Positions 55,801 to 58,800 of a stretch of 64,000 bases of DNA are shown here, piece by piece (positions within the stretch are counted from its first letter, which is position 1; every line of letters starts with the position of its first letter). A model generated the notes under the pieces. It had not been told where the DNA came from, searched no databases, and saw nothing but the letters and a program-made list of their open reading frames with translations. The stretch is from Antennarius striatus (lineage: Eukaryota > Chordata > Actinopteri > Lophiiformes > Antennariidae). Made by a program: the position numbers and the translations under genes. Where the stretch lies: NCBI RefSeq assembly GCF_040054535.1, contig NC_090798.1:1492501-1556500 (forward strand), in the 5' to 3' direction.

Positions 55801-58800
55801 TACAAGTGCATGCTGCCATCTTGGCTGGAAATGCAGCATTTTTGCTTGAAAAGCTTTGCGTGACTGCATCGTTTGCCAAAACCTTTAATCAGGAACAACC
55901 TTCTGTGTCTGAAGTATCAAATACAAGGAACAAAAAAAAAAAAGTACAGGCTTGATTTGAGAATTAAAGAGTTTATCCAACGGAGACTTGAAAGACTTTT
56001 CGTAAATCCACGTTGCAAGAGTTTAGAGGTGAAATCGCGAGTCGAGGCTTTCACTATTAATAAAATAATAAATAAATGATTCGTCCGCTTATTTCTGTTT
56101 CTGTGTTTTAGTGCGTGGATCTCGAGTTTAGCTTTAAAGTCGGGAATTGCGCCCCAGTGGATGCAAGTAGGACAGTCTCTACATTTATCTCTGTTTTGGT
56201 CTCTTTCTCATCCCTCTCTGAACATATATAACATTTAAAAGATGCATCTGAACTAGAAAAAGGAGATTTGTAGAAAATCATTCTTATCTTCCTCCCAGTG
56301 AGGTTTCATTTGGGAATTAATTAAGAACTTCATATTCCACCAACGTCACACATTTTTCTGCTACAAAAGCCAAACGCGGTCACATTCATACGTAGACTCT
56401 CTCATTGCGGGCCACACGACTTCTTTATGGCCTTCAAGTTTTAAAGGGAAATACCACTCAAATTTCAGCTTAAAAATACTCATTCATCATAGAAAAGTTT
56501 GGACTTGTGTAACTGTTAAACTCTCTTCCTTCCAAAAAACAAAAAACAAAAAATGAGGCAGATTGGTTCGTCCTGGTCTTTAGTCTGGGATGTCACGGCC
56601 CTATCGCGCGCACACTGAGCTGGAAAACCGATGACACAGTCCAGAGTGTTTTATTTTCTGAGGGAACAAGGGGGACATTTTCCGTGTTGGAATCCATCAC
56701 GCTGTCACAATAAAGAAACTTCAAGGACAAAAACGTCTTCAAGCGAGAGTCCGTTTGTCTCCTGATGACAAATTACAGTGTTTCGCTTTGGGTAACAGTT
56801 GCTCATAAATAATGATTTTGGCTGCAATGATGCTCTAAAAACAGGAAGTAGAGTGATATTCCCCTTTTAGCTACCCCCCAAAAAATAGGTGCAAAAGTAA
56901 GTTTGCATTGCATTACAGTACATTTCTCAATAGCAGTCCATCGGATTGAGTCAAAGCAACGCTGCTACCTATTGTTAGACGAAGGCAACGTCTAGGTTGC
57001 GTCTACGGGTCTCGTCTCTTCGCTCAGTTGGATTCAGGAATGCTCGTGCAAGGCAGTCCCGTTCCATTTCGTGCCATTTCGGACTTCTTTTTGCCTGTAT
57101 TCAGCAGATAAATAAAGTTTTTTTTGCAGGTTTCTAGGTTGTGTGTGAGGTCCACAGTGCATATATATATATATATATGTATATATATACATACTGTACG
57201 AGAGTGTGTGAGAGAGAGAGACTGAGAAAGGGAGACGGAGGAGTGGAGGACTGTGGAGGAATGCGGGAGTACAGGGTCAGAGCAAGAGGGCAGGCTTGTT
57301 CAGTCAGCCACAGATGAGGAATTGATCCGGGGGGAAATCTTTTTCGCCACAGAGGGAGAAAAGAGGAAAAAAAGTCTCGATAAGCTTGTCTGGAGATTTA
57401 TAAAAAAAAAAACTCCTTTATTGCATTTCTCTGTACTCCAGCCTTTTCTGCTATTTTTGAATCCTTGAAATCCAGGCATCCTGGCGTAAACGTATCGTCT
57501 TTCTTTCTACTTAGTGCGGGTTTCTTTCTCCCGAAAGTCAGATTTTTGGTTTCCTTCCACGAGTGCCTTCTCTCCTTACGCTCCGATTTCCTTGTTCCAG
57601 GATGATCGTCTTTCTCTTTCTGTCTCTGTGCCTTTATTCCCCCCCTCTGATGGATCATTAACAGTTCTGTTGCAGCCAACGTTTCCCTTCTCCCCTAGTT
57701 TGGACCTTTCTCTCTCTCTCTCTTTGCGGTTGATTGCTTCCTTTCTTGGATCAAAGTGCCGTGCAAAGTTTTTGTCTTTCCTTCGACCGTCTCTCTTTCA
57801 TTCCCCACATTAGTTGCATTCTTCTTCCCCCTTTCTTGGAGCTCTTCTTCTCCTCCTCTCATGGTTTCTTTGGTCGCCCGTTTCGCGGCAGGTTCTCCAC
57901 CGTGTTGCTGAGTCGGTACTTGACGATGATGCTGTGCACTGTGGACTTGGGCATCCTCAGCTCCTGCCCGATGGCCCCCTCTGACTTGCCGTCCTTCCAG
58001 AGGTCCACAACCCGTTGCCGCTGTACCACATCATGCTCCTTGGTCTTCTGGCAAGCAGCGGTTGGCCCTCCGGCGGATCCCCAAGCGGCTCCCCCGGTGG
58101 CCCCAGCAGCGGCGACGGCTTCTGTGGGGGCAGACAAGCGGCAGACTGTAGTGCAGGATCGGAGAGGAGAGCAGGACAATGTGATACTTTACTGGTCCCC
58201 CCAAGGGGGAACTCTCTTTTAGTTTGCATCCCTCCTCTGCAGGGAGGGTCAAGGGTCAGGGATGAGCTACTGGAGCTGGCGGGGGGTTGACTGTCCTACG
58301 CAAAGGACACTCCAGCGGGGCAGGTTCTTGCAGTCATGAGGGAGCTTGAACCAGCGTGTTCCACCTTGAAGGGCAACCTAGCTAGTCTCTACCCCCTTAA
58401 AAGATGACGCTTTCAGTGCGGGGGGGGGTAGCTTCCTCGGGGCTGAAAGAGGTTTTCCAAAGTGCAAAATCAAGATATTGAGCAAATGCGGAGATATTGA
58501 TGTGAGAGTCTCTCGCCAGCAAAAAAACAATCCTTCATTGGAACATTTGGAGTCTCATTACATTGTTTAGAAGAGTTCACAGAGTGCAGCTAAAATAGTA
58601 GATGTAGTTAGAAAAGTACCACGGCAGACATGCATATTTCTGAAGATATTTTGTGTACTTGAAGAAGGGAGCTTCTCTCAGGAGATCGGCTATTAAGGGA
58701 GAGAATCTAGGAGGTCGTAAAATCAGAATGGTGTTGTTTTAACTCGATCCGTTTCTCCAGTTCCCTTTTTTTTCCCCTCCTTGGTTGCGTCTGAAGAGGT

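Follow-up and report, generated by a model that had tools for sequence, protein, structure and literature searches.

Host-transposase fusions have reportedly been surveyed across tetrapods by Cosby et al. in 2021. Such fusions, which arise by splicing, form a recognized class with Tc1/mariner elements among their predominant sources (PMC8616336, PMC12062965), and in the described members SETMAR and KRABINER splicing has joined a transposase DNA-binding domain to a host gene of chromatin or transcription. In the F-box A2 family of Caenorhabditis a Tc1/mariner helix-turn-helix (HTH) was likewise captured by a host gene, within one exon, and is described as being mainly under purifying selection (PMC12062965). 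Human CHD3.1, unlike CHD3.2, carries at its extreme C-terminus a SUMO-interacting motif that binds SUMOylated KAP-1 (PMC3472778); this motif and KAP-1 are also mentioned in PMC5577463 and PMC5197957. Here we analyze a window of 64,000 nucleotides from the fish Antennarius striatus, which on its minus strand contains the 3′ end of a CHD3/4/5 (Mi-2) gene, hereafter chd3, and in the last intron of that gene a segment (57859..58121) that, as judged from its sequence, is probably a new host-transposase fusion.

Compared to SETMAR and KRABINER, the chd3 candidate keeps only the first HTH and an AT-hook-like stretch, and its host is a fish gene for a NuRD-type ATP-dependent remodeller, of which it would be an alternative last exon. 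The F-box A2 case differs in its N-terminal capture, its multicopy family and its Mos1-type HTH, which reportedly has no role in transcriptional regulation (PMC12062965), a caution that capture of a Tc1 HTH does not imply DNA binding. With the PAI subdomain of Sleeping Beauty/Tc1 transposases (HTH_SB, 2m8e, 6urs) the segment is homologous over exon residues 23–75; unlike these transposases it has no start Met, has a host-like codon composition, and no second HTH or DDE domain was found on its strand. The human isoforms CHD3.1 and CHD3.2 likewise differ in an extreme C-terminal SUMO-interacting motif (PMC3472778); no link between CHD3.2 and the fish exon is claimed. New here would be the combination of a remodeller ATPase as host, a single PAI-type HTH and an alternative last exon. 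Searches of the openly licensed PMC literature on CHD3 with transposases or with teleost splicing returned nothing describing such an isoform, which RefSeq or Ensembl may already annotate; the one CHD3 mention in PMC8616336 is a citation concerning plant CHD3 proteins, and PMC10027918 mentions no chd gene.

The candidate exon and its helix-turn-helix domain

The candidate exon comprises 263 nt, that is 87 codons including the junction codon and then TGA, and it agrees in coordinates, strand, phase and sequence with the original prediction, which had placed it as an alternative last exon of chd3, a placement that phase and location fit. The donor at 61352 leaves a G, with which the exon joins in phase to give the translation EAVAAAG...GRPKKP; the stop right after GRPKKP and the AATAAA at 57422 are present as foreseen, and a second AATAAA, nearer to the exon, starts at 57638. 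Phase and splice motifs are compatible with an in-frame joining to the host exons. The frame is open for 22 codons upstream of the acceptor, and no Met occurs from the preceding stop to the core of the HTH, the transposase start Met being lost, so that only splicing or a non-ATG start could produce the domain.

Splice sites were scored with weight matrices, in which the candidate acceptor (5.0) exceeds that of the canonical last exon (2.9) and another one of chd3 at 61970 (2.1), with the penultimate-exon acceptor (9.2) standing well above it. No donor above 1.25 bits occurs in 58121–57300, compared to 4.54 for the chd3 donor, and a terminal exon, delimited by its acceptor and by a poly(A) site within the intron, is therefore likelier than the poison or internal exon that we also considered. 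Frame length is not an argument here: the same 8.4-kb intron holds 37 minus-strand open reading frames (ORFs) of at least 55 residues, including that of the candidate (109 residues), the longest reaching 137, and since others are as long, the clean frame, originally put forward against a random fossil, carries little weight. What lifts the candidate above chance is its HTH homology together with a coding-type composition.

The claim of a Tc1-type first HTH is borne out by profile search. The exon matches Pfam HTH_SB (PF25787) with E 3.2e-13 and 49.6 bits, above the curated cut-off of 43, and the Sleeping Beauty PAI subdomain in the PDB (6urs/2m8e) with E 5.7e-8. The AT-hook consensus is the basis on which the terminal GRPKKP is labeled AT-hook-like. 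AlphaFold2 places helices at residues 31–43, 47–54 and 58–71, with block-mean pLDDT (the per-residue confidence) of 81–84 over residues 31–70. The best fold matches in VIA-align are DNA-bound paired domains; the 50 rows listed contain no Sleeping Beauty chain, although such chains may rank lower.

Codon composition, constraint and genomic Tc1 copies

The 62 codons of the HTH part have a GC content of.597,.371 and.79 at first, second and third codon positions (GC1, GC2 and GC3). This GC3 falls among those of three chd3 exons (.69,.79 and.84), whereas 99 Tc1 matches, drawn from 149 other protein matches (the 19 best with loci and 80 hand-picked across the list), range from.318 to.525 (mean.434, standard deviation.046); an initial survey of 39 of them, over longer alignments, had given.318–.532. 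GC3 minus GC2 is.42 in the exon HTH, compared to at most.147 in the Tc1 matches (n = 99) and none above.18 in the 36 other intronic ORFs. By Fisher test GC3 differs from GC2 with p 3.8e-6, from the 300 bases downstream with p 5e-6 and from the upstream bases with p 1e-3, and 21 of 30 fourfold sites carry G or C. Over the whole 109-residue ORF, whose opening 47 codons fall in intron or linker, the difference is only.14, which confines the GC3 signal to the HTH.

An alignment with 25 of 33 stop-free Tc1 stretches shows that the exon retains the conserved columns, 14/14 of those at ≥85% and 18/19 of those at ≥70%, and only 2/17 of the variable ones. Neutral decay was simulated from seven genomic Tc1 copies at four GC equilibria and seven divergences, with 2,100 runs each and no indels, and scored with a profile built from the 25 aligned copies and one further copy (L012), so that Tc1 copies are scored with a profile to which they themselves contributed. 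An open frame with the profile score of the exon and a GC3 of.70 was obtained in 0/2,100 runs in each of the 28 settings. Frame and score alone were kept in 21–26% of runs at a divergence of.1, in 0.3–1.0% at.2, and in at most 1/2,100 runs (printed as 0.000) at.3 and above. The pattern fits many synonymous changes accumulated after leaving the transposon, under selection at the protein level, and the HTH segment has probably long been used as host coding sequence. The evidence for such use, from GC3 and GC2, conserved columns and simulation, is indirect but strong.

The original prediction allowed that the segment might prove to be one of many genomic Tc1 copies. A DNA search of the genome (548 Mb, 42 contigs) with an 851-bp region, very common words being skipped, returned only the region itself, and a protein search returned the exon and otherwise scored matches of 30–49% identity; within the scored matches no close sibling was thus found at DNA or protein level. 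Four probes covering the rest of the Tc1 transposase gave at best E 2.3 on the exon strand over 52801–62500, whereas the same probes all reached E 8e-36 or better on a positive control, and neither a second HTH nor a DDE remnant was detected on that strand in that range. The reported absence of a catalytic domain accordingly stands for the exon strand, but not as an argument against a fossil, for a truncated fossil looks alike. The search for a rest of the transposon nearby yielded one further match, on the opposite strand and 4.5 kb off: 53214–53321 (+) is 36% identical over 36 residues to the Tc1 catalytic part (E 0.014, in a small search) and is perhaps an old Tc1 fragment. Among viral contigs 28 pattern matches were obtained, none a relative, and phage records gave five weak matches of E 1 or worse. 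Two divergent Tc1-type HTH copies, L110 (G000:C19:14405388-14405612) and L111 (C9:13063861-13064085), align to the exon from an earlier point (query residue 13) than the other rows, and in the fetched stretch no stop interrupts their frame ahead of the HTH.

Host gene, canonical tail and paralogues

The features of the locus are collected in the table below. Assignment to the CHD3/4/5 (Mi-2) family follows from a CHDCT2 match above the Pfam cut-off, one of four genomic loci with such matches; the name chd3 is our assumption, made from the resemblance of the tail to human CHD3. The first residues of the exon preceding the penultimate one are the end of CHDCT2, PF08074 scoring weakly and below cut-off on this piece alone. 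Of the paralogous loci, those on C9 and C14, which share identical 50-residue exon stretches, are presumably chd4-like, and that on C5 presumably chd5-like. Rfam returned nothing at gathering scores in 50000–64000, and a bacterial promoter and terminator scan was uninformative.

Features of the 3′ end of chd3, in window positions (a slash marks a splice junction)
Feature	Position	Strand	Remarks
chd3 exon with main CHDCT2 match	63040..63240	-	G000:C23:1555540-1555740, 101.5 bits
chd3 exon 5′ of penultimate, conserved part	61822..61970	-	three paralogous exons 80-82% identical
chd3 penultimate exon, ends MPPGSFIS/G	61352..61478	-	donor 61352/61351, CAG/GTCAGT
Pyrimidine-rich acceptor, ends CTGCCCCCACAG/AA	58122..58145	-	score 5.0, rank 14/479 AGs
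Candidate alternative last exon of chd3	57859..58121	-	phase fit to donor 61352, HTH_SB homology, host-like GC3
Ala/Gly-rich linker including junction codon	58048..58121	-	translation; without Met upstream of HTH
HTH part, 62 codons, KTKEHD...GRPKKP	57862..58047	-	PAI-type three-helix domain and AT-hook-like GRPKKP
AATAAA, candidate poly(A) signal	57417..57422	-	sequence motif
Canonical last exon, coding part	52843..52946	-	ends EVICIDD then TAG

The last intron of chd3, between the penultimate and the canonical last exon, measures ~8.4 kb. The canonical tail that the candidate exon would replace has 34 residues and ends in EVICIDD, the tail of the C5 paralogue ends in VICIED, and VICI(D/E)D is thus common to both termini. 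With its hydrophobic core flanked by acidic residues, as in the consensus, EVICIDD is likely a SUMO-interacting motif; the SUMO–KAP-1 data are human and may not apply to fish. At the chd5-like C5 locus (L026, G000:C5:1092600-1102597) the gap between the probable penultimate and last exons is ~0.6 kb, compared to ~8.4 kb in chd3.

The canonical last exon is embedded in simple repeats. Read on the coding strand, it is preceded at nine bases by the end of a (TG)n tract of 41 bases (52956–52996), and its stop codon is followed at four bases by the start of a (CA)n tract of 85 bases (52754–52838). (UG)n tracts have effects on splicing, and we infer that a (TG)n directly upstream of the canonical acceptor may make that acceptor weak or regulated and let the HTH exon compete. 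Some 0.7 kb downstream of the canonical stop, probably in the 3′ untranslated region, lies a perfect tandem array (51759–52101) of the 9-base unit CAGCTTCAG, with 38.1 copies and 100% matches.

Competing explanations and a possible exchange of tails

On balance we hold it probable that chd3 has in this segment an alternative last exon domesticated long ago, with the N-terminal PAI subdomain and AT-hook of a Tc1/Sleeping Beauty-family transposase as its source. We favor this reading because of the in-phase position, the homology, the lack of a convincing transposase rest nearby and of any close copy, the composition and the conserved columns; the observation underlying the original prediction is confirmed and its first interpretation partly supported. 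Several results weigh on the other side. The acceptor, described at first as strong, is moderate, 13 of the 479 intron AGs scoring higher. The linker, with GC of.8,.88 and.6 by codon position, bears no sign of constraint. AlphaFold2 confidence for the whole model is modest (mean pLDDT 63, pTM 0.43), Foldseek returned no match at E ≤0.001 with it, and in VIA-align unrelated HTH proteins score level with Tc3. With common words skipped, the single DNA match is no proof of rarity, and scoring in the protein search covered 150 of 367 candidates. In a tree of 86 tips, for which 85 of the 99 Tc1 copies were used (14 under 55 residues being dropped), no terminal branch is longer than that of the exon (.66), whose placement has weak support (0.34 and 0). 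The composition argument presumes a parent Tc1 that was not GC3-rich, and the nearest sampled lineage is far. Finally, at the three paralogous loci no such exon turned up in the ~10 kb that follow the matching exon; C5 was the only one of them where the last exon could be placed, and at C9 and C14 the search perhaps did not span the last introns.

A neutral intronic fossil, that is a 5′ Tc1-like fragment from a lineage otherwise absent, its frame unbroken by chance or because it is young, would account for a segment of this kind in a genome full of Tc1 copies, where truncated copies are ordinary, and in an intron where long ORFs are common. A lost GC3-rich Tc1 lineage would also mimic its composition, with none of that type among the copies examined. 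We nonetheless consider a fossil quite improbable: host-like GC3 goes together with low GC2, neutral simulations never produced the pattern, no close sibling was found at DNA or protein level, and an in-phase acceptor coincides with loss of the transposase start Met. The plain fossil was set aside on composition and simulation. Still less probable, to a degree that we deem slight, is a coding HTH that forms part of a different transcript, either that of a separate small gene with its own upstream exon or one in which the HTH exon is joined from another chd3 exon or promoter. The junction between donor and exon is a prediction only and the open frame upstream of the acceptor could be served by another acceptor or exon, but the phase fits the immediately upstream chd3 donor, and the segment lies on the same strand inside the chd3 last intron.

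An explanation that is unlikely, though more probable than these two, accepts the exon as real and constrained and differs on function, the HTH being a protein–protein surface or simply ending the protein without its SUMO tail. The nematode F-box HTH, which reportedly plays no part in transcriptional regulation, is perhaps involved in protein interactions (PMC12062965). The exon HTH is more acidic (7 D/E to 14 K/R) than four Tc1 copies counted (3–5 D/E to 15–18 K/R), and its HTH_SB score of 49.6, a further point against our preferred view, lies below the 56–91 of six genomic Tc1 copies scanned; given this lower score, its capacity to bind DNA may be partly gone. Retention of the conserved HTH columns and of the terminal GRPKKP argues for DNA binding instead, as do the DNA-bound paired domains among the best fold matches.

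If the segment is indeed a domesticated last exon of chd3, the spliceosome would use the acceptor at 58122 and the message would be cleaved after the poly(A) signal near 57420 or 57638. CHD3 would drop its 34-residue tail with the likely SUMO-interacting motif and gain 87 residues with a basic, three-helix predicted DNA-binding domain. Which last exon is used would thereby decide between recruitment by SUMOylated partners and direct DNA engagement, with sites related to old Tc1 terminal repeats as possible targets. That this amounts to a conserved fish CHD3 isoform, in which a SUMO-reading tail is swapped for an HTH that targets NuRD to Tc1-type terminal sequences and silences transposons or relic-carrying genes, is a speculative proposal that we put forward tentatively and think rather unlikely to hold in full. 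The prediction comes down to one splice junction, 61352–58121. In the general view, CHD3/4/5 remodellers reach their sites mostly through partner proteins. If the proposal is true, this remodeller would have gained a transposase-derived DNA-binding domain of its own at the cost of its SUMO-binding tail, and the locus would offer a testable case of transposons supplying targeting modules to core repression machinery.
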